This document shows, in pieces, positions 2,295-35,960 of a stretch of DNA of 36,857 bases; position 1 is the stretch's first letter; each line of letters begins with the position of its first letter. The DNA comes from a virus. The notes beneath the pieces are model-generated. The model searched no databases. It saw only the letters and a program-made list of their open reading frames with translations, and was not told the DNA's origin. The stretch covers positions 1-36,857 of the IMG/VR virus record IMGVR_UViG_3300026253_000002; one strand, 5' to 3'. Made by a program: the position numbers and the translations under genes.

Positions 2295-2514
2295 AGAACT
2301 GATTAAAGTTGCTAAAGAACCAATTGTAGATTCAGATGACGATATATCAGCAGATAGACTTAAGAATGCAGCAGCCACTAAAAAATTAGCTATATTTGAT
2401 GCATTTGAAATACTTAATAGAATCCAAGAAGAAGAAAACTTACTCGAGGGAAAAACACCTGAAGAGAGAAAGGAAAAAGTCTTTAAAGGATTCGCGGAAG
2501 GTAGATCTAAGTAA
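2239..2514 (+). CDS. Small helical protein upstream of TerL, possible small terminase subunit
   Basis: A 91-residue, highly charged helical protein: MNIKETKRNIIQAGQVAVEE, an acidic DSDDDISADRLKNAA segment, then a long helix and a KTPEERKEKVFKGFAEGRSK tail. A start at 2191 is in frame, but the ATG at 2239 gives the natural beginning and reduces the overlap with the upstream gene to 56 bases. Position immediately before TerL and size are compatible with a small terminase subunit, which binds DNA and regulates TerL. I see no clear helix-turn-helix, so this remains an inference from context. Its stop overlaps the TerL start as TAATG. Confidence 0.5.
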   Translation: MNIKETKRNIIQAGQVAVEELIKVAKEPIVDSDDDISADRLKNAAATKKLAIFDAFEILNRIQEEENLLEGKTPEERKEKVFKGFAEGRSK

Positions 2515-4730: not shown

Positions 4731-4732
4731 AT

Positions 4733-7126
4733 ATGAGTCAATTTCCAAGTCAAGTAGTTAGCGACAGAGAAAAGTCGAGTGGTGAGTACGGCTTAAAGAT
4801 TGCTAGAGCTATCGAGAGCGAGTGGTTCAATACTACTGGATATAATAATAGATTTCTTGGTAATATAAATAATTTTCACAGATTACGTTTGTATGCTAGA
4901 GGAGAACAATCAATACAAAAATATAAAGATGAGCTATCTATTAATGGTGATTTATCTTATTTAAATTTAGACTGGAAACCAGTTCCGATTATACCAAAGT
5001 TTGTAGATATAGTTGTAAACGGTATGGCGGAGAGAATATTTGATGTTAAGGCTTACTCACAAGATCCCTTTGGTGTGGACAAGAGAACCAAGTACATGGA
5101 ATCTATAATGAAAGACATGAGAACAAAAGAGTTTAATGATATGGCTCAGAACCTCATGAATATGGATCTATATGAAAATAAAAAAGAGGATTTACCACAG
5201 ACAGAGGATGAGCTAGCACTACATATGCAATTAACATATAAGCAGGCAGTAGAAATAGCAGAGGAGCAAGCGATAAACGTTTTACTAGAAGGTAGTAAAT
5301 ACGAGCTAACTAAAAAGCGTTTATATTACGATCTAACAGTTTTAGGTATTGCTGCTGCAAAAACTTCTTTTAATACAGCTAAAGGTGTTACTGTAGAATA
5401 TGTAGATCCAGCGAATTTAGTCTACTCTTATACTGACTCACCTTATTTCGACGATATCTATTATGTTGGAGAAGTAAAGAACATTCCGGTTAACGAATTA
5501 ATAAGAGAGTTCCCAGATCTTACAGAAAGTGAATTAGAAGATATTTTTAAAAGTAATCACAAATCTAGTTGGAGACAAAGAGGAGGCACAGGGCAAGATG
5601 ATGACTCTATGAAAGTGGAGGTTTTATATTTTAATTACAAAACATATATCCATGAGGTTTATAAAGTAAAGGAAACTGGAAGCGGTGGAAGTAAAGCAAT
5701 AGAGAAAGATGATTCATTTAATCCACCAGAAGATAAAGAAGGGGATTTTGGTAGGCTAGGTAGGAAAGTAGAATGCTTATATGAGGGCGCTTTGATTTTA
5801 GGTACAAGTAGATTGCTTAGATGGGAGAAAGCAAGGAATATGATGCGTTCTAAAAGTGATTTTACTAAAGTTAAAATGAACTATTCTATTGTAGCGCCTA
5901 GGATGTACAATGGTAAAATAGAATCCCTAGTTAGTAGAATTACTGGTTTTGCAGACATGATTCAACTAACACATTTAAAATTACAACAAATACTATCAAG
6001 AATGGTTCCGGATGGAATTTATTTAGATGCTGATGGTTTAGCTGAGATTGATTTAGGTAATGGAACTAACTATAACCCACAAGAAGCTTTAAACATGTTC
6101 TTCCAAACTGGTTCGATTATAGGTAGATCATACACGGCAGATGGAGATCAGAATATGGGTAAAATACCTATTCAAGAAATTTCTGGAAGTGGAAGTGGTA
6201 AGATGCAGAGTTTAATTGGGACGTATAATTATTATCTACAAATGATAAGAGATACTACCGGGTTAAACGAAGCTAGAGATGCTGCAACTCCAGACGCAAA
6301 AACTTTAGTTGGAGTACAGAAATTAGCAGCAGCTAATTCTAATACAGCTACTAGACATATACTAAATTCAGGATTATTTATAACTGCTGATGTGTGTGAA
6401 TCCCTCTCACTTAGGATATCTGATATCATAGAATACTCTCCTACTAAAAATGCTTTTATACAAGCTATTGGAGCACATAACGTAGCCACATTAGAAGAAA
6501 TGGCTAATCTACACTTATATGATTTTGGTATTTTTATAGATCTATCTCCAGACGAAGAACAACAAGCTATGTTAGAAAATAACATACAAGTTGCATTATC
6601 ACAACAAACTATAGATTTAGAAGATGCTATAGACTTGAGAGATATAAAGAATATGAAACTTGCTAATCAACTATTAAAATTACGTAGAAAGAAAAAGCAG
6701 AAGAAAGACCAAGAGATCCAACAGCAAAATATGAAGGCTCAAGCAGACGCAAACGCACAACAACAACAAGCTGCTGCTCAAGCTGAACTGCAAAAGCAAC
6801 AAGCAATGGTACAAAGTGAAATTCAAGTTGAGCAAGCTAAGGGAAAAATCAAGCAACAAACTCTTCAAGTAGAAGCCGAAGTTAAGACAATATTAATGGA
6901 CCATGAGTTTGAAATTAACATGAAATTAAAGAGGATGGATATTGAAAATGTTAAAGAGAAAGACGCAGTAAAAGAGAGTAGACAGGATGACAGAACAAAG
7001 ATACAAGGCCAACAACAAGAACGTCTTGTAGAAAAAAGAGAACAAGTAAAAGAGAAACCATTTGAATCGTCAGGTAATGATGTTATAGGTGGTGGAATGC
7101 GGTTAGGCGCGTTTGATCCTAAGTAA
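4733..7126 (+). CDS. Portal protein
   Basis: A 797-residue head-tail portal, encoded right after TerL. Portal-like features are an early RLYARGEQSIQKY segment, PVPIIPKFVDIVVNGMAERI (a common portal wing pattern), a long central stem/clip region with IQLTHLKLQQIL, and TGLNEARDAATPD near residue 510, typical of podovirus portals. The last 150 residues are a Gln/Lys/Glu-rich coiled coil (QQQNMK, NAQQQQAAAQAELQKQQ), which would form the barrel that projects into the capsid. Twelve copies would form the DNA channel that docks TerL. A GSGSGKM string near 6190 only mimics a P-loop. Confidence 0.88.
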   Translation: MSQFPSQVVSDREKSSGEYGLKIARAIESEWFNTTGYNNRFLGNINNFHRLRLYARGEQSIQKYKDELSINGDLSYLNLDWKPVPIIPKFVDIVVNGMAERIFDVKAYSQDPFGVDKRTKYMESIMKDMRTKEFNDMAQNLMNMDLYENKKEDLPQTEDELALHMQLTYKQAVEIAEEQAINVLLEGSKYELTKKRLYYDLTVLGIAAAKTSFNTAKGVTVEYVDPANLVYSYTDSPYFDDIYYVGEVKNIPVNELIREFPDLTESELEDIFKSNHKSSWRQRGGTGQDDDSMKVEVLYFNYKTYIHEVYKVKETGSGGSKAIEKDDSFNPPEDKEGDFGRLGRKVECLYEGALILGTSRLLRWEKARNMMRSKSDFTKVKMNYSIVAPRMYNGKIESLVSRITGFADMIQLTHLKLQQILSRMVPDGIYLDADGLAEIDLGNGTNYNPQEALNMFFQTGSIIGRSYTADGDQNMGKIPIQEISGSGSGKMQSLIGTYNYYLQMIRDTTGLNEARDAATPDAKTLVGVQKLAAANSNTATRHILNSGLFITADVCESLSLRISDIIEYSPTKNAFIQAIGAHNVATLEEMANLHLYDFGIFIDLSPDEEQQAMLENNIQVALSQQTIDLEDAIDLRDIKNMKLANQLLKLRRKKKQKKDQEIQQQNMKAQADANAQQQQAAAQAELQKQQAMVQSEIQVEQAKGKIKQQTLQVEAEVKTILMDHEFEINMKLKRMDIENVKEKDAVKESRQDDRTKIQGQQQERLVEKREQVKEKPFESSGNDVIGGGMRLGAFDPK

Positions 7127-21253: not shown

Positions 21254-22513
21254 ATGGGGAAATACAGTCCGAAATTAAACGCGAATACTTCGCAGAATGT
21301 TGTAGAATATTACAAGGCAGGTTTAAAGCGGCCTGAGACCGTTGGTTGGGATAGGGTTGGTGATATGGTAACATCACTAAATAAAACTATTCAACAAAGA
21401 AGAGACGAAGCTACTTTAGAAAAAGAGGAAAAAGAATTAAAGACAAAGGCTTATGAAGATCAGTTTGTTAAGAACTCAGAGGTAATTGCTGCTAATGCTG
21501 GTAGTCTAGGTGAGGAGTATTATAACCTAGCTTTTGATCAAGCTAAAGTATTACAAGATCAGTATAATGAGGCTGTTATGAATGATGACAAGAAATTAAT
21601 GGGTGAATTAAGAGGTAAGCTTAACGGCTTATCTACCACGGTTCAAACGCTAAAAGAAACAATGAACGAAGCATCAAGTTCACAGTCTGATGAAAATGGA
21701 GAAAGTAGTCTATCTGCAGGGATGAGTGAATATGAAAAACTAGTTAATGCAACATGTACTGATCCCTCTGCTATGAGTTATGTTGATGGTGAATTTCAAT
21801 GGGCTAATCCAGAGTTTAACCCAGAAGAAAAGGATTCTAAGGAATTTTTTACAATGGAGGATTTAAACAAGTCATTAATAGAAAGAGATGATACAGTAAT
21901 TCAAGAGTATAAAACATTTGAAAATACTTTAGGAGTACTAGGTTTAGACTGGCAAAATGGAGCTGAGGGAGCGAGTGGGTTTGACGACATATACTATGAT
22001 GCTAGTAATAAGAAGATGATTACCGAAAACAATATAGCAACCTTCTTACACGATGATGTCACCGGTAAAGGTGCGGATTATACCTTTGCAAAACAGTTGG
22101 GGGAATATATTGAGCAAGTTGATTATTCTGGTTTAGGCCTTGATGTTGCTAAGTGGGATAAAGATAAAGATGGTGATGTTGACGAGGATGATTTTGCTTT
22201 AGAGCAAGATAGAGAAAAACTAAAAGCAGCTATCACTGATCGTGGAAGTCCAGATTATAATTTTGAAACATCTAGAACTATAATTTCAGAGTGGATGACT
22301 ATGAATCAAAGAAAGAAATTTATGGGTAATATAGATGAGACTCTAGTTCCAGCACCAGGTGAAGATCAAGATACTTTTGTAAAAAGAGGTGGTAGCGTAG
22401 GCGCCTTAACTAAAAAAGGTATTGTTTGGAATGAAAATCAAGGAAGATTTATAGCCACGTCAACGAAGAGTGGGCAAGAACTGTTAGACTCACTTAAGAA
22501 AAAGAAAAAATAA
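21254..22513 (+). CDS. Internal virion protein with EF-hand-like loop, T7 gp15-like position
   Basis: A 419-residue hydrophilic helical protein. The first 150 residues are coiled-coil-like (QQRRDEATLEKEEKELKTK and later). A canonical Ca2+-binding loop pattern, DKDKDGDVDEDD, lies at residues 302-313 with acidic residues at loop positions 1, 3, 5, 7, 9 and 12 and Gly at 6, followed by a helix. The C-terminus is basic (SLKKKKK). It sits between the small Ala-rich protein and the 4363-residue protein, so it probably is packaged in the head and forms part of the DNA ejection channel. A Ca2+ role is an inference from the loop. Confidence 0.65.
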   Translation: MGKYSPKLNANTSQNVVEYYKAGLKRPETVGWDRVGDMVTSLNKTIQQRRDEATLEKEEKELKTKAYEDQFVKNSEVIAANAGSLGEEYYNLAFDQAKVLQDQYNEAVMNDDKKLMGELRGKLNGLSTTVQTLKETMNEASSSQSDENGESSLSAGMSEYEKLVNATCTDPSAMSYVDGEFQWANPEFNPEEKDSKEFFTMEDLNKSLIERDDTVIQEYKTFENTLGVLGLDWQNGAEGASGFDDIYYDASNKKMITENNIATFLHDDVTGKGADYTFAKQLGEYIEQVDYSGLGLDVAKWDKDKDGDVDEDDFALEQDREKLKAAITDRGSPDYNFETSRTIISEWMTMNQRKKFMGNIDETLVPAPGEDQDTFVKRGGSVGALTKKGIVWNENQGRFIATSTKSGQELLDSLKKKKK

Positions 22514-22523
22514 AATTATATAA

Positions 22524-25500
22524 ATGTCTCAAAGAGAACTAAAAATAATAGAACAAGGTAGAGCTATTGGTTGGTCAGACGACGAATGTCTTGCAGCTGT
22601 TAGGCAAAATAGACTTAATGTTGAAAACGCTAGACTACAAGTTATTCGGGAGGAAGAGAAGGCAGAGTTGATAAAGGAAAAACAAATTACTGTAGACACG
22701 AAGAAAAAAGTTTACAGTGATGAAAGCATGCCTGGTAACGATTACTTTTTAGAAGATGGGGATTGGGTATTTTATGACGATGACAATAAACGTATAGATG
22801 TAACAGAGGGTAGTGTTGGCCAAAGTCTATCAAAGAAGTATGAAGATAAAACAGTCGACATAACGGATTACGACAAGATAATTGCTCCAAGTGCTATTTG
22901 GACTGACCATGAGGGTAAAGATAAAAAACTAAAAGACAACATACTAGATTATAGGGATGATGATTTTGTTGCAAATACTTTAACTAGAGAATATGGTGAA
23001 GACTTTGAGTTCGTCGATTCTGGTAGTGACATGATAACGGTTACTAGTAAAGAGACGGGATTGACTCACGAATTTGAAACTAATTTTGTAGGGGGAGGTG
23101 GAAAGAAAGAAATAAAATCTGGTAAGAAATTAATCAAGTGGATGAAAACCCAAAAGTTCGGAGACATGTCGGAGAAAGGAGATGCTGACTATAGAGCTAT
23201 TGAAAATGAGGATGGTGATTTAGAGTGGCATTATGTTGATGAGTTTGGGGATGACGTGAGTATTGTGGAATCAACAAGTACTTTACAAGATTTAAATAAC
23301 AAGTACCCAGAAGCTTTAAATGAAAGCAAGAAACGTTTTGATGGCGTGAATGACTTTAAAGTAGTGAACGGTGAATGGCATGTTAGGAATGAGGATCAAG
23401 AATGGGAAAAAGCAAGCGGCGACATAGCGCTAGAGATGAATGCAATACACGGTTCACCTGAAGAGAAAGAAGAGGATGGGGTAATTTATAACCATGGATT
23501 GGTTCCGCTAAAAGCAGTAAACGCAAAAGAAGCTCTTGTAGGCGAGCATGATAAGAGACAAAACATGGGGATAGACGAGTTCTATGAAACAATATGGATG
23601 CCAAAAAATTATACTAATGGTCCGAGTTGGAAGAATGTTGTAAACGACCTCACACATTTAACAGATGGTAAAGAGGGGAACATGTTTTCAAGGGATTTTG
23701 GTAAGACTCCGTTCATGGAAGAAGAGTACAACAATTATATAAGGCAATCTAAAACTGCTCTAGACAACCACAACGAAATAACTAAAGTTTCAAAAAACTC
23801 TAAAGGCGCTTATAATTGGTATCTCAAAGATTCAGACGAACAAGCAGAAAAATCTTTCGATCAAGAAATCCTTTTAAAGCTAGAGAGTGCTTACTTGAGT
23901 AACGAAGTGCCAATGCTACCTCAAATGGTTGATGGGGAGTACGAAGAGGTACAGGGTACTAAAGACGATATTTGGATACACACAGATGAGGATGGGAAAT
24001 CATATACATATGGGGATTTTGACTACAAAACAAATGTCTCTGATGCTGTAACAAAAGGGTTGGAAACGAGCTCTTTGAAAGATGAGTATCAAAACGAAAA
24101 CACAACAGCATCTAAAAAAGAGGAACTGAAGGGAGAGATACTATTAGCGCAACCTGAGTGGACTAAATTTTATGATGAAGAAGATATCGATGGTTGGGAG
24201 GATTTAGATATAAATGATTTTAATGATTTTGTAAAAAACCACCCTTCTTTTAAACACTTAGATGTTACCACTTATGGAGCAACGGATGACAGCAGGATTT
24301 ATTATGGAGACTATGGGGCTGCTGAATTACAGTGGGACGAAGATAAAAAGAAACATTATTGGAGCGGAGGAGCTGGAGAAGGATCTGTACATACCATAGA
24401 CAAACTTAAAGCCCAAGTACTTACGGAATATCTTAATACAAGTATTAGCAAAAATAGGGATGTTTATGATACTTATGAGCAAGCAGGTACTTTTGACAAT
24501 CTAAACCTACTAAATGAATACGCGAGTAATGTTAGTAAGTTAGATGCGGAGTTAACACCTATAACCGAGGAATATGAAAAACTAAAAAAAGGTATTGACG
24601 ACGGCACTATAAAGAGTAGTAAATCAAACTTAAGTAAGTTAAATGACTTAGGTATAGAGATAAATAGTATATCTGAAGTTATAAACTTCAACGTAGACAA
24701 CTACAATGGTATTGCTAATGACAAAGCCAATATGGTTCTTTTTGATGGTTATAGAGATCTTAAGAAAAATAATGCGGCTCTTAGTAAATCATTTGGTAAG
24801 CTGATAGACCCTAAGAGTACTAACAAAATAAATGTAATTGCGTCTAAGGAATACAACGAAAGATTAGACGAGCAGGAGAGGTTATTGAAATTGGAGAGTG
24901 GTCACTTGGGGTGGCAAGCGGCTGGTGTTATAGAGGGGTTGTGGAGTGCCGTCGTGGGTGGTGTTACTGGAATAGTTGGTTTGGCAGAGGCTTACACACC
25001 AGAGCTTTGGTCGGATACTAGTGGGAAAGATAAAGCGCAAGTAATGAACAAGTGGTCAAGCCTTTCAGAACAGATGACGTGGAACGCTGTTGCGGATGGT
25101 AATATGATAGACCCTGAAACTGGTGAATTGAATTGGTCTGCGGTTCCTTCGCAAGTAGCGCCTGTAGTTTTAGATATGTATTTGATGACCCAAACAGGTG
25201 GGGCGTTTGGAGCAATAAAAACAGGGGCATTTGCACTCGGAAGAAAGGGGGCTAAGTATACCGCTAAGGCATTAAACCTAACTGGTAAGTCTACTAAGTT
25301 TATGGAGAGAGTAGCCCCTATAGGTAGGAGGTTAAATAAAATATCTACAGCCAAAAACCTAAAGCAAATGGGGAATCAATTTACTGGTGGTATGATGATT
25401 ATATTGCCTAAAAATATTGAAGAAGCCGTAATGCAGGTTGATGAAGATTTCTCATATGAGGATGCATTAAACTCTGCTTTTTATAAAACAATTACAGAGT

Positions 25501-28500
25501 CTGCTATTGAGATGATCAATCCAGATGTTAAGTTTTTAAAAGGTATGTCAAAGTTTAAGGCTGGAAGTAAGTACGGAGACTTAAGGCTTTGGAACCCTAA
25601 GGTTAAGGGTTTTAAAAACAACGCATATAGAATGTTAAATATATTTGGTCAGAATCTTAGGAACGTTCCTTCTGAAATACTTGAGGAAAATCTCCAAGAA
25701 CTAACCAATGGTATATGGAACGGTTATTACAACCAAACTAAAGGCACGGATTTTCACATGTCAACAGCGGATGATTATAAGGCTTTGAATGTATTAACAC
25801 CGCTATCAGTGTTAACGGGTGGTTTCATTAGGACTAGAGGGTTTAGGAAAGGTGGTGTTAGTTCTAGTATGTATCAAGCAGCAGTGGAGAACTATGAGGA
25901 GTTTAATGCGGAAATGCTAGCTGCTCACGAGGGTGGAAAACTTGATTACGTGGATGACGCTGGAAACACAGTGTCTTCTTATCCTGAAATCATGGAGCAA
26001 GTAAACCAATATGTTACGGCTAAAGCAAACATACCTTATGAAGAATACTCTCAGATGAGCAACTCTCAAAGACAAGAGACATTGAGTTTATTAGTTCAAA
26101 AAGCGCAGCTAGAAGCAAAGATTCAAAACTATGACGAGGTTGGTGATGTTGACTCGAGCAGTAAAGACCACGGGGGAATGACCGCAGGTGAAGGGTTGAA
26201 TCAATTAGAAAGAGATTTAAAAAACGTGGAAGGTAGGCTGAAGAAGGTTGCCAACGGTGTTCAGACTGAATTTATGAGTTTGGAAGAACAAAGGACTGAT
26301 GTAGAGTTAATGAAGCTGAAGGCTCAGTGGAAGGGGGAAGAACTAGGTTCTCAGAAAAAAGCTGATCTAACTAAGAAGATAAGAGAACTAACTAGAAGTC
26401 GAAATGAACTTAGGGATAAGGGTCATCTATATGAGTTTAACGGAAAAGGATATAATAACGCTGCTGAATTTATTGAAGCTGTTAAAAATGCGAAGAAGAA
26501 TGGTTACTTCAGTGGTGGACATTCTAGGTCTAAAATACGTATAAGTAATAAAGTAGATTCCGCTAAAGCAGAGTACATAGGTAATATGGTTAATAAATTA
26601 ACCGGTAGCCAAACATATAAAGGTGGGGAGATATTGATGAATAGTAATGATATTACTGAAGCTGAGGGCTTTACTCATCAAAAAGAAAACAGAGGTAAAA
26701 CTTTAGAGGATTACAAAGAGGAGCTAAAGCAAGAGTTGTTAAAAAACCCAAAGCAACAAGATGTAGACGTTCTTAACAATCTAAGAAATGTTAAAAAGTA
26801 TTTAGAACTACGAGATAGAGGTTACGCTCATAATCCAAACTTTGGAGGGATGGTTATGTTTGGTTCTGATGATGTTGATCTCAGAGCTGTGGATGAAATT
26901 TCTTTAACAGAGAAGATTAAAGCTATAAGTGAAGTTACTGGAGAAGCTGGTATTATGACAGTACCTATGACTCAAGAGCAAATTGCTGATAATTATTTAG
27001 ATCCCAATGGTGAAATTGACAATCCAGATGCAATAAGAGCCAATGCGTTTATGATGCCTATATTAAATGAGGAGACTGGGAAAATGGAACCAGCCCTAAT
27101 CATTAACACAACAATGGCTTTAAAAAACAAAGCTTTAACAGCACCAACTCACGAGCTTTTACACGCTGCTATATTCGCTGTTATTAATGGTCCTATCAGG
27201 GTGATAGAAAAAGATGGTATAAAATATGAAACGCACTTAACCAAAAAAGGAACTAAACTGTTAAAAGGGTTTATAAAGTTACTACCTAAGGCTCATTTAG
27301 ATATATTGAATGCTGACTTAGAAAGTAGAGGATACTTTAATAAAAACGAGGATGGAGATATAATAGAGCCTTTTGAGATTTATGCAGAGGAATACCTTAA
27401 TCATTACCATGACTTGGTGGTTAAACACAAGAAGATACCTTTAAACGCACCAGATACAAGAAACACTTTAAAAAAAATAGCAGACTACTTTGTTAGCTTC
27501 TGGAAGCAAGAAACAGAGGAGGAACTACACGGTGTGATGGAAGGAAAGTTAGATACTCCTGAGAAGCTGCTTCAGTTCATGAGAGGTTTTAACCAGCAGG
27601 CATTAAACAATAAATTTACTGACCAAGTTAAAAGTATGGTAGCTACCTCTAAAGGACATTTTGGAGAGGTAATAAAGAGTGATGTAGATGATGGAACAGT
27701 GCAACTGTCTAGAGAGATAGAATTAGAAGAAGAAGTAACAGAAGAAGAGTATACGGAAACTAAGGCTGATCTATTTTCTAAGTCAAACAAGAAGTTCTTA
27801 GAGGCTTTAGAAATGTATGGTATAGAAAATGCAGGACTCTTGTTGAAATACAATACACAAGAAGAACTAGATGAATTAAAAAAGAAAGATAAAGATACTT
27901 ACAATAAAATAATAGTAGTTAGAGAAAAATGGGATAACTTAAAAGATAGAGATAAGTTGGTTGTAGGATATATAATAGGTGATACTTGGAGGCCTTTTGC
28001 TAGCAGTAAATTTAGGACTAGATATGAAGGAGTTCCTGGTTACGCTCAGTTTGGTAGTGGTATCTTAGATGTATTAACAACTGGTATTGAAGTTGGACAA
28101 AATGGTCTCCCATACTTAGTAAAGACTTGGGATCCGTCTAAAAGAAAGTTAACATCACATATATATGGTGAGCTTAATAAAAGAATTCCGCATGTTGTTG
28201 GTCTTCCTCAGTTCGCTGGTTTTGGAGAATTAATGGTTAGGGATTCTGAGACTGGTGGTGAATTTGATTTCTCTAAACTATCGAGCGAAGATATTGCTAA
28301 TAGTATTTTAGATAGTTATAGTATTGACGAAGCTATTGAGATAGTTGAGGCTAAGAAAAAGAATGGTGAGATTACAGGAGAACAGGCTGAGTTTATATCT
28401 GACAAGATAAATAATATAAAAAATGATAATGTTAGAAAAGAGTTTGAAACTGGTAAAGTTAGAAAGATACTAGGAATTAAATCTCCACAAGAAATTCAAA

Positions 28501-31500
28501 ATGAAATTGCAAAAGCTAAAAATGAAACTGAGATCGCGATCTTAGAAAAGCAATTAAAAGAAGCTTACCTATATGAAAAAGTATTAAATACTGTTTTGGC
28601 TGAGGTTGATATTAATACTTTAAAATCTGAGCTAGCAGATGTAAAAACTCAAAAGAAATTTAGACAACGTATAGAAAAAGGTTTTGTAAAAGAATTAAGA
28701 AACGAGGTTAAGAAAATTATTGGTACTCAAAACTCTCCTCAGTTTAAAGAATTTTTAAAGAATAACAAGAGTAAGTTAATAGATTTGTTAGCTATTAAAT
28801 ACAAAAACAGATTTCCTACACTAACTAGGGATGGTGGTAGAATGAGCACAGACCAATCACTAGAATCACAAACATCGGAAAAAGGTTCTTTTGTAGCAAA
28901 TGAAAAAGGCGGTAACAGACTTTGGTTATTAGAGAGCTTTACGCCTAGTCAATTTGAAGATCTATTTGTTAAGGGTGTTGATGGTAAAGGTAGAGACACT
29001 CAATATAAATCCTTAGTAAATGCTTTGGCTAACGAGCTAGGATTAGATGCAGTGTTCCAGGCTATTGGAGATAAAAACGCTGATACTTATGGCACTCAAT
29101 TAACTGAGGCTATAAAAAGAAACCCTACAACAATGTTTAGTAAGGGCACTAGGATTAGCGAAGATATTAGCGAGAACGATGCTAATCTAATTAATGATGC
29201 TTTCGCTGGAGATAATGTTTTAGAGAGAGATTGGGAGAAGCTAAGAGATATTGCTTTAATAAAAGGATTTACTTGGGGCACTACAAAATGGAGGAAGACA
29301 GTGGGAGATGCTGGTATACACGAAGGTACTATAAGACTTATGGAGATCATGGGTATTGATAGTAGATTTAAAGAGGATGATGCTGGTGGTTTTAAAACTC
29401 CTTTCAACAACTGGACAGCTAAGAATATAAAGAATCTAAATCGTGTTAGTGACATAGTAAACTTATACAATCAGAATAATAACAATAGCGCTGAGGGTAG
29501 AAAACAATACACTAAGGGAATATTTAAATTATTAGACAGTCTTCCGCCAAGGTTAGTTGCAGTTCTTGGCAAGACATACTTTGGCTTGAAGGGTAAAAAT
29601 TATAGTCTTGTAGAGAAAGATAGGTATAACGAGTTATCTAAAAAGTTTGATGATAAAATAAAACAAGAAGATAATAGTGATCTTGATTTCAATGTAGAGG
29701 CTATTAAGATAGTGAATTCAGGGTTTGGTATAGCTAAAGATATTAGGGGTATACAATTCTTAAATACTTCAATAGCAAATAAAAAAGCTTTGATGGGGGA
29801 GATGGGGATAAATGACAAGATAGATGCCTTGAATGTAAATAACCCATTGGTTCTTAACTTTATAAATAACGAAATAATAAAGATACTGTCAAATGCTAGT
29901 GTGGACACCGAAACTAAAGCCGGTATACTTAGGTATCACGAGTCCGCAACTAATAATACTAAGGCTCAAAGAGGATTAACAACGATAAAAAGCATACAGT
30001 GGCATACAGGCTCACAAGCTCCTTATATAGGTATTGCTACTAAGGATTTTAAGTTCCAAAATAATAGTTATAAAAAAGGAGACGTGGTTGGGATTGCTTC
30101 CAATACAGAGGCAAACACTAAAAATCTCAAAAATGTAAAGCTAAACGAATCCCATCCTGATTACAAGGTTGCTGAAGAATATGCTATGAACTACGTTAGC
30201 AAACAAGCTACTGTTATTCTCTCCACGAGAGGAGGCACGAAGGGTGTTAAGAAAGCTAGAAAAAAAATAGAAACTGGGGATATAAGTTTAGATAACTATC
30301 TAAGTGATTTATTTGAAAGTAGAATAGCAGAACACTTGAGAGTCAAGGGAGAACATGCTAAGCCTAGTGCTAATGTTCAAAAGGAGATTTTGCAAGAACA
30401 ATTACTAGCTGTTAATAAAATTTTATCTAATCCTAACAATACTCAAAAAGCGTTAAAGGAATTTAACAAAAATTATAACAATATAGTAGCGGAATATACC
30501 CAAGCATTTGGTGCTGAAATAAATTCATTTGCTCAAGATCAAGCGCTAGGTCCCACTAGTACTGCTAATATAGATAGGATGATAGTTTTAGAGAAGGTTA
30601 AAGGTTTAGATTTAAATTCTTTCCATGGGGTTGATTTGAGTAGTAGAGATTTACGGGGACGTAGTTTAGTCAACAGCTTGGTTTCAGAATCAATTGAAAT
30701 AAATAAAATTGTTGAGAGTTTAAATTTACCTAGTGATAAACAAATAGCGATAGCCGAAAAAGTTAAAAAAGCCATGATATTCTCTAGGGCAACAAACGAA
30801 TCTAAAGGAATAAGTGTTTGGGATTTTGATGACACTTTAGCTAGAACAAAATCTGGTGTTAGATATAAAATGCCGAATCCTACAGGTGTCCCTCAACCAG
30901 GTAGGAAAGTTATATTCTTAGCCGGCGGAGCTGGTAGTGGAAAATCAAATGTTGTATTAAAACTTGGATTAGAAAATCAGGGCTTTAAAATAGTTAACTC
31001 TGATATATCACTTGAGTGGTTAAAGAAGAATCATGGCTTACCAGCTGATATGAAAGATCTAACATCGGAACAATTATCTATGTTAGGTAAGTTACAGCAC
31101 CAAGCTAGAGGTGTAGCGAGAAGAAAAATGATGAAATACCAAGGAGATGGTAATGGTATTATTGTTGATGGAACTGGTGGATCTTTAAATGTAATGAAGA
31201 AACAAGTACAAGAGTTTAAAGATAAAGGCTACGATGTTCAAATGATATTTGTGAATACCTCTGAGGAAGTTGCTGTTGATCGAAATGCTAAAAGAAAAGA
31301 ACGAACATTAAAAGAAAGTATAGTAAGAAAGAACCACGCGGCTGTTCAAGAGAATATACCAGGATTTAAAGAGTTGTTTGGAGATAACTTCACCGAAATA
31401 AATACAGACTTTTTAGGTATGGATGATGCTATGCCCGCTAGTAATGTAAAAGATATAAACAAGTTTACTAAAAGTTATATCAACGGTAGATTAGATGCTG

Positions 31501-34500
31501 GAGAATTTGCAGACAAAGGAGCCGAACTAAAAGCACAAGGAGCAGAATTTGATTTCTCAGAATTTAATATTATCGTGGAAGGAGAGCAAGGACCATTCTT
31601 TAAAAAAGCCATAGATAGAGCTAAGAAGTTTGGAACAAAACATCAATATGTTTTAACGGCTAGACCGTCGGCATCAGCACCACATATACATGAATTTTTA
31701 AAGTCTCAAGGTTTAAACATACCGTTAGAAAACATTACTGGATTAGAAAACTCTACAGCGGAAGCTAAAGCTCTGTGGATATTAGAAAAAGTATCTGAGG
31801 GTTATAATGATTTCTACTTTGCAGATGATGCCATGCAAAATGTTGATGCTGTTAGGAGTGTATTAGAGCATGTTGATGTTAAGTACAAAGTCCAACAAGC
31901 TAAGTATAAATTTAGTAAAAGTGCTGACGTAGATACAGCTTTGGAATCTGTAAAAGATATTAACAAATTAGGTTTACCTGGCACTTATAGCAGTATTAAG
32001 TTTTCTAAAGCTCACAGATCTGAATACGAAAACACTATAGCAAAACATCGTCCTGATTTAGTTAAAGAAGGATTAGTTTCTCAAACTGTAGATAGCATGT
32101 TTATCTTTATAGATAGTTTAAATATTCCTGCTGATAAGAAAAGGAAGTACGAAAGAATAACTACTAAGTGGTTAGCGACAAGTAATATAAAACTATTAGA
32201 AGATAGGTTCAAAATAACAGATGCCGTTAATTTAGCAGAAAGATTTAAATTAGACTTATTCTCTTATAACAATCCTAATGAGATTATAGAAGCATATGCT
32301 GGTAAGGTTAAAAAGAAAGTTCTTAATCCAAATAAAATAATTGAATTTTCTCCAAGCGTAACCACTAGTAAAGAACACGGTGTTACTGAGCACGAAGTTG
32401 ACAATACTAAAGAGGGTCAACAATCTGTTAGAGACATTATAGATTCTCATTGGGGTGAGAACTCAAATCCTTGGTGTATTACACAAGCTAGAGATGGTAA
32501 GTTAACAGAGGAAGCCTTTAGTAACTGGGAGCATTATAGCGATGGACCTAAAAGTATTGTATTTCAAGACGGTAAGTTATTAGCTTTCTACGCTAACGGG
32601 CAATATTGGGATAGAATGGATAGTGCTACAGACGCTCCCGTTGTGCAAATTAAAGAAGGCAGAGTTACAAAGAAGGTAGAACTTGTACCTATAGGTAATG
32701 GCAAGGTTGATGAATTTGTTATGGAAACTCGAACGGTAAGTAAAGATGGTAACACTGTTACAACAGAAGTTCTACATACTCGTCATGGGAGTTATGCCGA
32801 GGGTACTAAAATTATAGAAAACAGAATTAACGGTATAACTGTTAAGTCTACACGGGCCAATGCAGATGGAGCCACTCAAGAAATAATAAACTTTGATAAA
32901 AGTGGTAAGGCAACTAACAATATTTCTTTTGATACAGATGGATCCACAACAGCTATTAATCGTTACGGCCAACCATTTGGTGAAATGAGCGTACTTGATA
33001 TCATAACGAAAAAAGGAGACTTACTATCGCATGAAATTACTGACGGTGATGTAAGTTATTATCACGGTCAAATTAGTTTAGCTGCTCAAGGTATTAAAAG
33101 TGTCGGTGGTATTACTACCACGGAAATAGGTTGGAAGATGCCAAATAATTTAGACTTACAAGACTTTGTGACAACCTCTCCTAACGGTGAGATAAGAGCT
33201 GATTTAAAAAAGATTTTAGAAGTAGATCCTGATGCGAAAGGAATTCAAGGTGATAAGTACAAAAGCGAAGTTTCTTTGATGTTTAGTAAGGGCGCTAGTG
33301 AAATAGCTGGTGATGTATTTAATAACATATTAGAAGAGACAACAGGTATGAGTGCAGGGAAAATTTTCTCTGATGCTCAAGCTAAAATAAGAGGTAAGAA
33401 GGCTAATGAGTTTAAGTTTTGGATACCTCCATCTGCGGAAGATTTTAAAGGATTGATTTATCAATTCTTAGGTAAAGGAAAAGAAGGTGAAGCTCAGTTG
33501 AAATTCTTTGAACAAGCTTTATTCAGGCCTTTCGCTAGAGCTACTAATGAAATTAACACCTCAAAACAAGCAGCTGTTAATGATTATATTTCTTTAGTAA
33601 AAGGTTTTCCAGGAATAAATAAAGCTTTAAGACAAGAACTTGAAAGAGGCTGGACAATGGATCAAGCTGTTAGAGTTTATGTATGGAATAAAGCTGGGCA
33701 CACAATTCCTGGTTTATCTAATAGAGACTTGAACTATTTATTAGAGCAAGTAGAAAAGAATGTTTTTGTTAAAGCATTTTCAGATGCACTGGCTAAAGTA
33801 TCGAGAAAGAAAGACGTTGCACCTAGTGAATACTGGACTGTTGAAACTATACAGTCAGATATTATGGATGACGGATATCTTGGGGATGCTAGAGCGGAAC
33901 ACTTGTCTGAGTTTAGTGAGAACAGAGAACAGATATTCGGTAAGTGGGAAAATGGAAAATTAGTTGGACCTAACATTAATAAGATAGAAGCTATATACGG
34001 AACTGAATTTAGAGATGCTTTAGAGGATATCTTACATAGAATGGAGTTCGGTAGAAGTAGACATCAAGGTAGTAATAAAATTGTTAATGCATTTAATACT
34101 TGGGCTAATAATTCAGTTGGGGCAATCATGTTCTTAAACATGCGTTCAGCTGTCTTACAAACTATATCTGCTATTAATTATTTGAACTGGTCAGACAACA
34201 ATCCATTAAAGGCTGCTGCAGCATTCGCTAATCAACCACAATTTTGGAAAGACTTCTCTATGATATTTAACTCTGACATGATGAAGCAGAGACGTGCTGG
34301 TCATCAAAGAGGTGTTAACGAATCAGAGCTTGCTGCTGCTGTGGCTGGGCAAGAGAACAAAGCAAAAGCAGCCTTGGCTTGGTTGTTACAAAAAGGATTT
34401 TTGCCTACACAGATCGCGGATAGTTTTGCTATTGCTTCAGGTGGCGCTTCGTTCTTTAGAAATAGAACCAACACTTATTTAAAGCAAGGCATGACCCAGG

Positions 34501-35615
34501 AGCAAGCTGAAGCCAAAGCTTGGACTGATTTTCAAGAGGTAACAGAAGAAAGCCAACAATCATCTAGAGCTGATTTAATATCACAACAACAAGCAAGTCC
34601 TTTAGGACGATATATCTTAGCTTTTAAAAACACACCTATGCAATATGGTAGGTTAATGAAAAAAGCTTTTCTAGATATTAAGAACGGTAGAGGTGATTTA
34701 AAAACTAATATAGGTAAAATACTATATTATGGAATGATACAGAACTTTATATTTGCGGCTTTACAATCTGCGTTATTTGCTGTAATGGGTAGTGATGATG
34801 AAGACGAGATGGACGATAAGAAAGAAAGAATAATTAATTCTATGTTAGACTCTATTCTTTATGGGTTTGGAGTAGCTGGTACCGCGGTATCTGTTATAAA
34901 AAATGCTATGTTGGAATATGTGAAACAAGAAGGTAAAGGTTGGAATGCTGATCACACTTATACTATATTAAGGTTATTAAGTTTCTCTCCAACAATTGGC
35001 TCTAAGCTTAGAAAAGTATATTCAGCTATACAGACTAAGAAGTTTAATGAGGATATTATGAGTGAGATGAGTTTGTTAGATATAAATCATCCTACATGGT
35101 CTATCATAGGTAATCTAGTTGAGGGAGCAACAAATATTCCTTTAGGCAGAATGATTCAAAAATCCGTAAATGTACAACAAGCACTAAACTCTCATAACGA
35201 AGCATGGCAAAGAGTAGCTTTAATGCTAGGCTGGAACACCTGGGATTTAAAAATTAAAGATCAAGATATATTAGATTTAAAAGAGGTGGTTAAAGATAAG
35301 AAGAAGATAGAGAATAAAAAGAAGAGTAAGGAGAATAGGAAGAAAAAGGAGAAGGAGCAGGAAAAAGAGAATGAAGCTATTATTAATCAAAACAAAAAGA
35401 AAAGTAGAAAAGATGGTATCTGTTCCGCTGTTAGTAAAGGGGGTGAAAGATGTAAAACTAAAGTTGTAAAAGGTAAACTCTTCTGTACTGTCCACGAGAA
35501 AGTAGTTCAAAGTAAAAGTGGTAGAGAAGTTCAATGTAGAAAAATAAAGTCTGATAAGGATAGATGTAGAATGAAGACAAAATCTAAGAGTGGGTTTTGT
35601 TATTATCATGATTAA
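22524..35615 (+). CDS. Giant polyvalent internal virion (ejected) protein
   Basis: 4363 residues. In order: a helical start; acidic modules with a Trp (W81, W235, W285, perhaps W484, W604); a hydrophobic segment at about 799-820 and a second near 875-905; a zinc metallopeptidase motif HELLH (1543-1547) with E1622/E1623 downstream; helical regions of unknown role to 2750; a HAD phosphatase (D2767, D2769, T3045, K3082, D3101/D3102) whose cap position holds a P-loop kinase (2801-2808); an NPWC domain (about 3310-3370) and Gly/Asn-rich repeats; a C-terminal region with hydrophobic segments near 4063-4087 and 4111-4130; a Lys/Glu coiled coil; and two CX9CX10CX2H modules (4300-4324, 4338-4362). Position and size suit a T7 gp16-like packaged protein that is ejected with the DNA. 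Domain calls are by motif only. Confidence 0.8.
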   Translation: MSQRELKIIEQGRAIGWSDDECLAAVRQNRLNVENARLQVIREEEKAELIKEKQITVDTKKKVYSDESMPGNDYFLEDGDWVFYDDDNKRIDVTEGSVGQSLSKKYEDKTVDITDYDKIIAPSAIWTDHEGKDKKLKDNILDYRDDDFVANTLTREYGEDFEFVDSGSDMITVTSKETGLTHEFETNFVGGGGKKEIKSGKKLIKWMKTQKFGDMSEKGDADYRAIENEDGDLEWHYVDEFGDDVSIVESTSTLQDLNNKYPEALNESKKRFDGVNDFKVVNGEWHVRNEDQEWEKASGDIALEMNAIHGSPEEKEEDGVIYNHGLVPLKAVNAKEALVGEHDKRQNMGIDEFYETIWMPKNYTNGPSWKNVVNDLTHLTDGKEGNMFSRDFGKTPFMEEEYNNYIRQSKTALDNHNEITKVSKNSKGAYNWYLKDSDEQAEKSFDQEILLKLESAYLSNEVPMLPQMVDGEYEEVQGTKDDIWIHTDEDGKSYTYGDFDYKTNVSDAVTKGLETSSLKDEYQNENTTASKKEELKGEILLAQPEWTKFYDEEDIDGWEDLDINDFNDFVKNHPSFKHLDVTTYGATDDSRIYYGDYGAAELQWDEDKKKHYWSGGAGEGSVHTIDKLKAQVLTEYLNTSISKNRDVYDTYEQAGTFDNLNLLNEYASNVSKLDAELTPITEEYEKLKKGIDDGTIKSSKSNLSKLNDLGIEINSISEVINFNVDNYNGIANDKANMVLFDGYRDLKKNNAALSKSFGKLIDPKSTNKINVIASKEYNERLDEQERLLKLESGHLGWQAAGVIEGLWSAVVGGVTGIVGLAEAYTPELWSDTSGKDKAQVMNKWSSLSEQMTWNAVADGNMIDPETGELNWSAVPSQVAPVVLDMYLMTQTGGAFGAIKTGAFALGRKGAKYTAKALNLTGKSTKFMERVAPIGRRLNKISTAKNLKQMGNQFTGGMMIILPKNIEEAVMQVDEDFSYEDALNSAFYKTITESAIEMINPDVKFLKGMSKFKAGSKYGDLRLWNPKVKGFKNNAYRMLNIFGQNLRNVPSEILEENLQELTNGIWNGYYNQTKGTDFHMSTADDYKALNVLTPLSVLTGGFIRTRGFRKGGVSSSMYQAAVENYEEFNAEMLAAHEGGKLDYVDDAGNTVSSYPEIMEQVNQYVTAKANIPYEEYSQMSNSQRQETLSLLVQKAQLEAKIQNYDEVGDVDSSSKDHGGMTAGEGLNQLERDLKNVEGRLKKVANGVQTEFMSLEEQRTDVELMKLKAQWKGEELGSQKKADLTKKIRELTRSRNELRDKGHLYEFNGKGYNNAAEFIEAVKNAKKNGYFSGGHSRSKIRISNKVDSAKAEYIGNMVNKLTGSQTYKGGEILMNSNDITEAEGFTHQKENRGKTLEDYKEELKQELLKNPKQQDVDVLNNLRNVKKYLELRDRGYAHNPNFGGMVMFGSDDVDLRAVDEISLTEKIKAISEVTGEAGIMTVPMTQEQIADNYLDPNGEIDNPDAIRANAFMMPILNEETGKMEPALIINTTMALKNKALTAPTHELLHAAIFAVINGPIRVIEKDGIKYETHLTKKGTKLLKGFIKLLPKAHLDILNADLESRGYFNKNEDGDIIEPFEIYAEEYLNHYHDLVVKHKKIPLNAPDTRNTLKKIADYFVSFWKQETEEELHGVMEGKLDTPEKLLQFMRGFNQQALNNKFTDQVKSMVATSKGHFGEVIKSDVDDGTVQLSREIELEEEVTEEEYTETKADLFSKSNKKFLEALEMYGIENAGLLLKYNTQEELDELKKKDKDTYNKIIVVREKWDNLKDRDKLVVGYIIGDTWRPFASSKFRTRYEGVPGYAQFGSGILDVLTTGIEVGQNGLPYLVKTWDPSKRKLTSHIYGELNKRIPHVVGLPQFAGFGELMVRDSETGGEFDFSKLSSEDIANSILDSYSIDEAIEIVEAKKKNGEITGEQAEFISDKINNIKNDNVRKEFETGKVRKILGIKSPQEIQNEIAKAKNETEIAILEKQLKEAYLYEKVLNTVLAEVDINTLKSELADVKTQKKFRQRIEKGFVKELRNEVKKIIGTQNSPQFKEFLKNNKSKLIDLLAIKYKNRFPTLTRDGGRMSTDQSLESQTSEKGSFVANEKGGNRLWLLESFTPSQFEDLFVKGVDGKGRDTQYKSLVNALANELGLDAVFQAIGDKNADTYGTQLTEAIKRNPTTMFSKGTRISEDISENDANLINDAFAGDNVLERDWEKLRDIALIKGFTWGTTKWRKTVGDAGIHEGTIRLMEIMGIDSRFKEDDAGGFKTPFNNWTAKNIKNLNRVSDIVNLYNQNNNNSAEGRKQYTKGIFKLLDSLPPRLVAVLGKTYFGLKGKNYSLVEKDRYNELSKKFDDKIKQEDNSDLDFNVEAIKIVNSGFGIAKDIRGIQFLNTSIANKKALMGEMGINDKIDALNVNNPLVLNFINNEIIKILSNASVDTETKAGILRYHESATNNTKAQRGLTTIKSIQWHTGSQAPYIGIATKDFKFQNNSYKKGDVVGIASNTEANTKNLKNVKLNESHPDYKVAEEYAMNYVSKQATVILSTRGGTKGVKKARKKIETGDISLDNYLSDLFESRIAEHLRVKGEHAKPSANVQKEILQEQLLAVNKILSNPNNTQKALKEFNKNYNNIVAEYTQAFGAEINSFAQDQALGPTSTANIDRMIVLEKVKGLDLNSFHGVDLSSRDLRGRSLVNSLVSESIEINKIVESLNLPSDKQIAIAEKVKKAMIFSRATNESKGISVWDFDDTLARTKSGVRYKMPNPTGVPQPGRKVIFLAGGAGSGKSNVVLKLGLENQGFKIVNSDISLEWLKKNHGLPADMKDLTSEQLSMLGKLQHQARGVARRKMMKYQGDGNGIIVDGTGGSLNVMKKQVQEFKDKGYDVQMIFVNTSEEVAVDRNAKRKERTLKESIVRKNHAAVQENIPGFKELFGDNFTEINTDFLGMDDAMPASNVKDINKFTKSYINGRLDAGEFADKGAELKAQGAEFDFSEFNIIVEGEQGPFFKKAIDRAKKFGTKHQYVLTARPSASAPHIHEFLKSQGLNIPLENITGLENSTAEAKALWILEKVSEGYNDFYFADDAMQNVDAVRSVLEHVDVKYKVQQAKYKFSKSADVDTALESVKDINKLGLPGTYSSIKFSKAHRSEYENTIAKHRPDLVKEGLVSQTVDSMFIFIDSLNIPADKKRKYERITTKWLATSNIKLLEDRFKITDAVNLAERFKLDLFSYNNPNEIIEAYAGKVKKKVLNPNKIIEFSPSVTTSKEHGVTEHEVDNTKEGQQSVRDIIDSHWGENSNPWCITQARDGKLTEEAFSNWEHYSDGPKSIVFQDGKLLAFYANGQYWDRMDSATDAPVVQIKEGRVTKKVELVPIGNGKVDEFVMETRTVSKDGNTVTTEVLHTRHGSYAEGTKIIENRINGITVKSTRANADGATQEIINFDKSGKATNNISFDTDGSTTAINRYGQPFGEMSVLDIITKKGDLLSHEITDGDVSYYHGQISLAAQGIKSVGGITTTEIGWKMPNNLDLQDFVTTSPNGEIRADLKKILEVDPDAKGIQGDKYKSEVSLMFSKGASEIAGDVFNNILEETTGMSAGKIFSDAQAKIRGKKANEFKFWIPPSAEDFKGLIYQFLGKGKEGEAQLKFFEQALFRPFARATNEINTSKQAAVNDYISLVKGFPGINKALRQELERGWTMDQAVRVYVWNKAGHTIPGLSNRDLNYLLEQVEKNVFVKAFSDALAKVSRKKDVAPSEYWTVETIQSDIMDDGYLGDARAEHLSEFSENREQIFGKWENGKLVGPNINKIEAIYGTEFRDALEDILHRMEFGRSRHQGSNKIVNAFNTWANNSVGAIMFLNMRSAVLQTISAINYLNWSDNNPLKAAAAFANQPQFWKDFSMIFNSDMMKQRRAGHQRGVNESELAAAVAGQENKAKAALAWLLQKGFLPTQIADSFAIASGGASFFRNRTNTYLKQGMTQEQAEAKAWTDFQEVTEESQQSSRADLISQQQASPLGRYILAFKNTPMQYGRLMKKAFLDIKNGRGDLKTNIGKILYYGMIQNFIFAALQSALFAVMGSDDEDEMDDKKERIINSMLDSILYGFGVAGTAVSVIKNAMLEYVKQEGKGWNADHTYTILRLLSFSPTIGSKLRKVYSAIQTKKFNEDIMSEMSLLDINHPTWSIIGNLVEGATNIPLGRMIQKSVNVQQALNSHNEAWQRVALMLGWNTWDLKIKDQDILDLKEVVKDKKKIENKKKSKENRKKKEKEQEKENEAIINQNKKKSRKDGICSAVSKGGERCKTKVVKGKLFCTVHEKVVQSKSGREVQCRKIKSDKDRCRMKTKSKSGFCYYHD

Positions 35616-35648: not shown

Positions 35649-35960
35649 ATGGCAACAACAGCACAAGAAATAGCACTAATGAAAAGAGACATAGAAACCT
35701 TAAGTGATGACGTAAGGGAATTGAATGCGAAAATAGATAATTTAATGATAAAATTACTAGACCCAGATGAGGGCTTAGTAGTTAGAGTCAATAAAAATAC
35801 TGAGAGCTTACGAATCCGTGACAAAAGTATGGCGGGATGGCTGAAGGATGTTGAAGATTTTCATCATATGAAAAAATGGAAACATGGTGTTAACAAAGCT
35901 TTATGGTTTATATATGCAACCATTATAGGTCTTATTATTAAATTCTTATTTTGGGAATAA
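35649..35960 (+). CDS. Coiled-coil protein with C-terminal membrane anchor
   Basis: A 103-residue protein. Residues 5-40 form a heptad-like coiled coil (IALMKRDIETLSDDVRELNAK), then comes a charged middle with GLVVRVNKNTESL, and a hydrophobic C-terminus at about 84-101 (LWFIYATIIGLIIKFLFW). This build resembles the haemolysin XhlA-like class of phage lysis accessory proteins and short membrane-tethering proteins, but no diagnostic residue is decisive. It may assist the holin or anchor a complex at the inner membrane. The TAA stop overlaps the start of a micro-ORF (TAATG at 35958-35962). Confidence 0.55.
   Translation: MATTAQEIALMKRDIETLSDDVRELNAKIDNLMIKLLDPDEGLVVRVNKNTESLRIRDKSMAGWLKDVEDFHHMKKWKHGVNKALWFIYATIIGLIIKFLFWE

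Follow-up and report, generated by a model that had tools for sequence, protein, structure and literature searches.

Phage polyvalent proteins join several unrelated enzyme domains, among them zincin-like peptidases and zeta-like kinases, in one chain (PMC5512222). N4 vRNAP (gp50) is a large ejected protein in which an HExxH subdomain is followed by an all-alpha C-terminal part, and its N-terminal domain is thought to span the membrane (PMC12633501). The C-terminal region of N4 vRNAP is needed for encapsidation (PMC5512222), and the absence of cysteine from N4-like vRNAPs has been explained by tail passage free of disulfides (PMC3915230). Bcep22-like phages encode DarB giants such as BcepIL02 gp70 (4667 aa) and JC1 gp69 (4515 aa); the latter, from a relative of BcepIL02, has been detected in virions by mass spectrometry (PMC9144972). 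T7 gp15 and gp16 are ejected internal virion proteins free of cysteine, and the flavophages phi18:3, phi38:1, Gundel_1 and elemo encode giants of ~1700-3700 aa. In T4 Pnkp, a HAD phosphatase and a P-loop kinase share one chain, arranged in tandem with the kinase ahead of the phosphatase.

Here, we describe a giant protein of this kind, which is probably, in our firm view, a virion-packaged and ejected polyvalent protein of a Bacteroidota-infecting podophage lineage. It is a variant of an already known class, the phage polyvalent ejected proteins, and has a large uncultured family behind it.

Layout of the giant open reading frame

The window, the whole 36857-base stretch of DNA analyzed, is a linear fragment of an uncultivated virus. 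An earlier note on this DNA had reported a single frame of 4363 codons occupying ~35% of it, together with zincin, HAD, P-loop kinase, hydrophobic and zinc-module motifs. The frame is intact, with an ATG start and 0 internal stops, and fills 35.5% of the window; all of the reported motifs were located in its product. Hydrophobic segments lie at aa 802-820, 4070-4088 and 4107-4125. The features discussed below are as follows.

2514..7126, + strand: terminase large subunit and portal, the basis of the flavobacterial podophage placement
21254..22513, + strand: 419-aa upstream neighbor of the giant, its size and order kept in relatives; the corresponding phi18:3 gp121 slot is annotated from MS/MS
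22524..35615, + strand: whole giant open reading frame (4363 aa, ~491 kDa)
22524..24863, + strand: acidic N-terminal region (aa 1-780, pI 4.6), lineage-specific, resembling only the close relatives L014 and L058
24861..26123, + strand: conserved, partly hydrophobic helical domain (aa 780-1200), common to flavophage virion proteins
26865..27539, + strand: putative zincin metallopeptidase region (aa 1448-1672), with HELLH at 27150-27164 and E1623 at 27390-27392
28161..29213, + strand: moderately conserved middle region (aa 1880-2230), no fold assigned
30804..30887, + strand: HAD phosphatase, part one (aa 2761-2788), with motif I DFDDT (D2767/D2769)
30888..31484, + strand: P-loop kinase of zeta-toxin/polynucleotide-kinase type within the HAD domain (aa ~2789-2987), Walker A at 30924-30947
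31485..31943, + strand: HAD phosphatase, part two (aa ~2988-3140), with motif II LTAR at 31653-31664, a conserved Lys and a DD motif
31971..33293, + strand: accessory domain (aa 3150-3590), found among the relatives examined only in L017 and L036
33321..35303, + strand: all-alpha C-terminal domain, the most conserved region (aa 3600-4260), with hydrophobic segments at 34731-34787 and 34842-34898
35421..35495, + strand: CCCH zinc-binding-like module 1 (aa 4300-4324)
35535..35609, + strand: CCCH zinc-binding-like module 2 (aa 4338-4362), weak DUF5763 match (E 0.039)

Phage lineage and gene order

Judged by its terminase and portal sequences and its gene order, the phage is placed with the flavobacterial podophages (Pachyviridae, Pervagoviridae, Elemovirus). 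The terminase is 63% identical to that of MW202828, while the portal shares 51% identity with MW202828 and Maribacter phage Panino, 40% with the elemo phages, 36-37% with phi38:1 and Calle, and 30% with phi18:3; terminase, portal and several structural genes also match PHROGs and proteins of flavobacterial podophages. The order of terminase, portal, capsid-type genes, a large structural gene, small genes and the giant recurs in MW202828, Panino, elemo, phi38:1 and phi18:3, and the upstream neighbors of the giant keep their sizes and order across relatives. The phage is therefore not T7-like, and the T7-like position assigned in the earlier note is replaced by an analogy, in which the giant's gene slot may be regarded as functionally equivalent to the ejected-protein slot of T7.

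Several other genes of these phages deserve mention. A GroES-type co-chaperonin gene (1704-2294), conserved in this phage lineage, lies directly before the terminase. A small gene at 35649-35960 weakly resembles a PHROG called hemolysin and is possibly a lysis gene, and a collagen-like tail fiber gene (36112-36855) runs off the contig end. The same-slot giants of MW202828 (L001:741-12320, - strand) and Panino (L002:18229-23718, - strand) are annotated as 'reticulocyte binding/rhoptry protein' and 'tRNA methyltransferase', respectively, and both names look wrong.

A scan of genome contigs found only 10 MAG contigs, several in Bacteroidota bins and others in doubtful bins. We read these as binned viral contigs, so the assignment of the host to Bacteroidota is only suggestive.

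Comparison with described giant and ejected proteins

The giants of phi18:3 (gp123), phi38:1 (gp101), Gundel_1 (gp74) and elemo resemble the window giant in phage lineage, in the aa 780-1200 domain and in cysteine exclusion, having none, and all are smaller. The genes for those of phi18:3, phi38:1 and elemo also sit in the slot of the window giant, closing the structural cassette, and the giants of Gundel_1 and elemo carry a zincin-type motif. Unlike the window giant, the Gundel_1 gene lies before the portal, and a HAD motif was not found in its product; the C-terminal profile of the giant family matches Gundel_1 alone among these flavophage giants.

With polyvalent proteins (PMC5512222), the giant shares the presence of several unrelated enzymatic domains in one chain (HAD and kinase by profile, zincin by HExxH + E), a zeta-like kinase, a late-gene context with portal-terminase packaging, and LPD14 in 3 of 45 relatives. 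It differs in having a HAD phosphatase ('phosphatase' has 0 occurrences in the main text of PMC5512222), in the nesting of the kinase within it, and in a conserved C-terminal domain unmatched by the LPD38 model. Large size, cysteine exclusion and the succession of HExxH and all-alpha C-terminal regions recall N4 vRNAP, but an RNA polymerase domain was not found in the giant among Pfam and PHROG matches, and module order differs. The DarB giants are of similar size, are encoded by the last virion-module gene before the lysis genes and, in BcepIL02, lack cysteine and carry the aa 780-1200 domain; in contrast to the window giant, they bear helicase, methylase and lysozyme cargo and LPD38/LPD3 domains, with no HAD-kinase, and their LPD38-type C-terminus is by profile unrelated to that of the giant. 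T7 gp15 and gp16 occupy an equivalent place among virion genes but belong to another phage family; no transglycosylase was found in the giant, and neither T7 protein matched the aa 780-1200, zincin or C-terminal profiles. T4 Pnkp has the same two enzymes, whereas in the giant the kinase lies between HAD motifs I and II and the tandem order does not occur.

A family of uncultured relatives

The window's C-terminal 800 aa identified three IMG/VR relatives, and a profile built from these and the window (4 sequences) matched at least 501 candidate stretches in IMG/VR. The family set analyzed here comprises 75 proteins of >2200 aa, encoded by 74 fetched loci and the window, whose protein is the longest. 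Conservation is highest in the C-terminal 650 aa, and the N-terminal 780 aa are nearly lineage-specific. A single-sequence IMG/VR scan with the zincin/middle region returned no relatives. Against phages, neither a DNA-level search nor tblastn with the first 2492 aa gave a match, and with the last 2204 aa tblastn matched only in the kinase/HAD region, in Kyanoviridae phages and Atu_ph07. Among 50,697 phage records, single-sequence comparison gave no confident relative of the C-terminal domain, and Pfam contains no family for it; a search of open-licence papers found nothing on this giant protein family.

The aa 780-1200 domain and virion packaging

The aa 780-1200 domain is a predicted membrane-interacting domain with near-invariant E1051 and E1055. 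A profile of this 400-residue domain matched the same-slot giants of elemo ('structural protein', 1.5e-35), phi18:3 (gp123, 8e-30), Calle_1 (3.5e-28), phi38:1 (4e-27) and Panino (5e-17), with matches at 58-119 bits and the best reversed sequence at 8.4 bits. In gp74 of Tenacibaculum phage Gundel_1, a 'structural protein', the domain (1.5e-37) is followed by HEFGH and then by the C-terminal domain (1.9e-12), the order seen in the giant. The BcepIL02 DarB giant carries it as well (21.3 bits; controls <=4.4), and with BcepIL02 added to the profile, aa 277-441 of N4 vRNAP matched at 17.6 bits (controls <=3.3), a match that is suggestive only. LPD14, a large polyvalent protein-associated domain, scored above the Pfam cut-off in 3 of 45 relatives, aligned to window aa ~988-1088; LPD models gave no match to the window protein itself.

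The record of Cellulophaga phi18:3 gp123 carries the note 'experimental MS/MS proteomics analysis', indicating detection in the virion, and this protein has the aa 780-1200 domain in common with the window giant but not the enzymes. Detection in a homologue makes packaging of the giant in the virion very likely, and its composition and gene slot make ejection into the host almost as likely. The earlier proposal of a multi-enzyme polyvalent protein, probably virion-borne and ejected, is thus sustained by the slot and domain of phi18:3 gp123, the layout of Gundel_1, LPD14 and cysteine exclusion. Its T7-like setting is set aside, and enzymes acting as an 'early takeover kit' ahead of phage gene expression are a conjecture.

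A putative zincin

The HELLH motif lies at aa 1543-1547, with E1623 as the predicted third ligand. A single HExxH is present in each of the full-length relatives (75/75), all from marine virus contigs, against a shuffle mean of 0.016 per protein. Across 45 diverged relatives with a mean column identity of 14%, the only invariant columns are E1051, H1543, E1544, H1547 and E1623. The giant family shows the HExxH and downstream Glu of the zincin-like peptidases of polyvalent proteins, with ligands invariant in relatives. The zincin assignment, which rests on the invariant HExxH + E, is putative: a PDB profile search with the zincin alignment gave no convincing match, and zincins were absent from its results. 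In the structure model, residues 664-930 (window aa ~1453-1719) are mostly confident; searches with the whole model were filled by coiled coils, and helical stretches dominated the matches of aa 790-1720. Self-processing by the zincin has been proposed for the polyvalent class by Iyer et al. (PMC5512222), and we consider it an even chance that the zincin of the giant processes its own chain. The MW202828 giant (L001) has two HEFGH motifs, at aa 1615 and 2500, and may contain two zincin domains.

A kinase nested in a HAD phosphatase

HAD motif I (DFDDT, aa 2767-2771) and motif II (LTAR, aa 3044) flank a Walker A motif that begins at aa 2801. The HAD motif is present in 67/75 full-length relatives (shuffle mean 0.047), and 36 aligned HAD domains share without exception the D, D and T of motif I, the LTAR Thr, one Lys and the DD motif. 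HAD members match Pfam HAD and DUF2608 weakly, and a PDB profile search with the HAD alignment gave no convincing match. In a single-sequence Pfam search of the window protein, the kinase is the only domain to exceed the cut-off (Zeta_toxin 1.6e-11, AAA_33 5.3e-10). Its profile finds T4 polynucleotide kinase (3.4e-5) almost as well as zeta toxin (1e-5), and its PHROG match is polynucleotide kinase. We conclude that it is a genuine zeta/polynucleotide-kinase-type domain.

Motif I and LTAR stand 78 residues apart in relatives with HAD alone; in 7 proteins including the window protein, the distance is 277. For one of these relatives (L079), the kinase and the sequence downstream of it served to check the nested state. 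It is the kinase that accounts for the additional 199 residues, nested in the phosphatase between motifs I and II. Both motifs listed separately in the earlier note are real, and the location of one inside the domain of the other is what it had missed. A search of open-licence papers found none describing a HAD domain with a kinase set inside it, and the arrangement is genuinely unusual. The kinase is absent in most relatives and occurs without a detectable HAD motif in two (L078, L087). The nested state requires 5 or more changes on a C-terminal-domain tree, which indicates that the nested-kinase slot has been repeatedly exchanged or lost. HAD and kinase are best described as interchangeable cargo, whose substrates we infer; if one substrate must be chosen, Pnkp-like nucleic-acid end healing is the likeliest, as a tentative assignment.

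An accessory domain of 450 aa with an NPWC motif sits between the HAD-kinase and the C-terminus in the window protein, L017 and L036 only; it had no match in phages at E up to 1 and no database match. Stand-alone kinases of 220 aa from the same family, annotated as hypothetical, are encoded by Kyanoviridae, HTVC008M (L094:8977-9639) and Melnitz (L096:5950-6618).

The C-terminal domain and zinc-binding-like modules

An AlphaFold model of the C-terminal domain is all-helical (pLDDT 78, pTM 0.69). In BFVD, it finds very similar domains in a few uncultured viruses and weaker matches (TM ~0.5-0.64, 10-16% identity) in many phage proteins named polyvalent, ART-PolyVal or LPD-containing, as well as Gundel_1, with a poor overall superposition. 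Comparison with the PDB (VIA-align) gave a best Z of 4.3, which is not meaningful because the model is helical, and a Z of 3.5 for the T7 gp15-gp16 complex, too weak for use; a PDB profile search with the C-terminal alignment gave no convincing match. The domain thus has some fold similarity to LPD-named viral proteins. Sequence gave no support for membership in LPD38: PF18857 had no match in the window or relatives and hhalign gave a probability of 0.8%; the Panino giant has a weak LPD38 match (1.8e-5). By analogy with N4 vRNAP, the C-terminal domain may serve in encapsidation; its profile has no match in N4. The two zinc-binding-like modules follow the pattern C-x9/10-C-x10-C-x2-H. In the last 110 aa, 34 relatives have 6 cysteines, 5 have 3 and 36 have none.

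Cysteine exclusion

Outside the last 110 aa, the 75 giants contain 13 cysteines in 216,129 residues, and 66 of them have none. Upstream neighbor proteins of >=300 aa have 1.5 cysteines per 1000 residues, a rate 25-fold above that of the giants. Relative to these neighbors, cysteine occurs at 0.04 times the rate and the other 19 amino acids at 0.67-1.39 times. In the window gene, base composition predicts 13.5 cysteines per 1000, and the observed value is 1.8. The zinc modules, the main place where the giants tolerate cysteines, account for three-quarters of those observed. The exclusion is not absolute, since the window giant has 2 cysteines in the 4253 aa outside the tail, in addition to the 6 in the zinc modules.

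Other proteins follow the same rule. Cysteine is entirely absent from N4 vRNAP, gp51 and gp52, T7 gp15 and gp16, BcepIL02 gp70, phi18:3 gp123, and the phi38:1, elemo, Gundel_1 and Panino giants. T7 portal, gp12, gp17 and terminase have 3-5 cysteines each, and in the compared phages cysteine is present in the portals, in the terminases and in the other large structural proteins. The extension of the rule to these proteins rests on the sequences counted here; the papers found in our searches do not state it beyond N4-like vRNAPs. The absence of cysteine supports ejection independently. In Bacteroides phage BKO1-TP3, gp55 (L117:2067-18728, - strand), a DarB-like protein of 5553 aa that is larger still, has 8 cysteines (1.4 per 1000). 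BKO1-TP3 infects a strict anaerobe, a hint from one or two proteins that depletion may depend on an oxidizing envelope.

Proposed mechanism and alternative explanations

In our model, the giant would be expressed together with the late structural genes, and its all-alpha C-terminal domain would mediate its loading into the head. At infection, it would travel down the tail in unfolded form and enter the host envelope, and cysteines would be excluded because disulfides formed in the oxidizing periplasm would trap it. The identities of the domains suggest the remaining steps: the hydrophobic aa 780-1200 domain may aid in engaging or crossing the envelope, the zincin may cut a chain, probably its own, to release modules, and the HAD phosphatase and nested kinase may, ahead of phage gene expression, act on nucleotides, on sugar-nucleotides or on the ends of host or phage nucleic acids.

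Three other readings concern the protein as a whole. The giant could be retained in the particle as a head core or tail scaffold, its enzymes working in assembly and its zincin serving as maturation protease. Detection of a homologue in virions suits this reading and a zincin could be a prohead protease, but the cysteine exclusion is that of ejected T7 gp15/gp16 and N4 vRNAP rather than of resident portal, tail and large structural proteins, and the exchange of kinase cargo (at least 5 changes on the tree) suits effectors more than assembly parts; we consider retention improbable. An unpackaged, late cytoplasmic enzyme of the infected cell, for which the stand-alone kinase genes of the same family in the Kyanoviridae HTVC008M and Melnitz might speak, is very improbable given that a homologue is present in phi18:3 virions, that the gene lies inside the structural cassette, and that cysteine exclusion would have no reason in a reducing cytoplasm. 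The idea that a long low-complexity protein would yield such motifs by chance draws on the single-sequence Pfam result, in which only the kinase exceeds the cut-off. It is refuted by the family alignment, in which conservation in 75/75 (HExxH) and 67/75 (HAD motif) compares with 0.016 and 0.047 expected and catalytic residues are invariant, and its probability is negligible; the possibility of chance matches, raised in the earlier note, is answered by these counts and by the kinase score.

A further alternative concerns the kinase alone, which could phosphorylate sugar-nucleotides in the manner of zeta toxins, weakening the cell wall so that DNA can enter, instead of taking part in end healing. 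Zeta_toxin is its best Pfam match (1.6e-11), UniProt gives a close viral relative the name UDP-N-acetylglucosamine kinase, and Iyer et al. propose a cell-wall role for the zeta-like kinases of polyvalent proteins (PMC5512222). The nearly equal score of T4 polynucleotide kinase, the PHROG match and the fusion with a HAD phosphatase, which is the Pnkp combination, point the other way, and we regard the sugar-nucleotide role as possible but doubtful.

Implications for uncultured phages

Packaging and ejection of the giant, the reading that we prefer, would mean that phages deliver an enzyme set of 2300-4400 residues together with their DNA. No fewer than 500 contigs of uncultured viruses carry the conserved C-terminal domain, and what fills the variable slot from zincin to C-terminus would show which effectors phages exchange. 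A cysteine count offers a cheap, checkable way of nominating ejected proteins. Taken to its full extent, which we think unlikely, the interpretation is that marine Bacteroidota podophages carry a large family of cysteine-free ejected polyproteins, in which a zincin frees, within the host, a phosphatase with an inserted kinase and end healing pre-empts RNA- or DNA-cleaving defenses of the host ahead of all phage gene expression. If that were true, cysteine exclusion would be a general signature for finding ejected proteins in uncultured phages.
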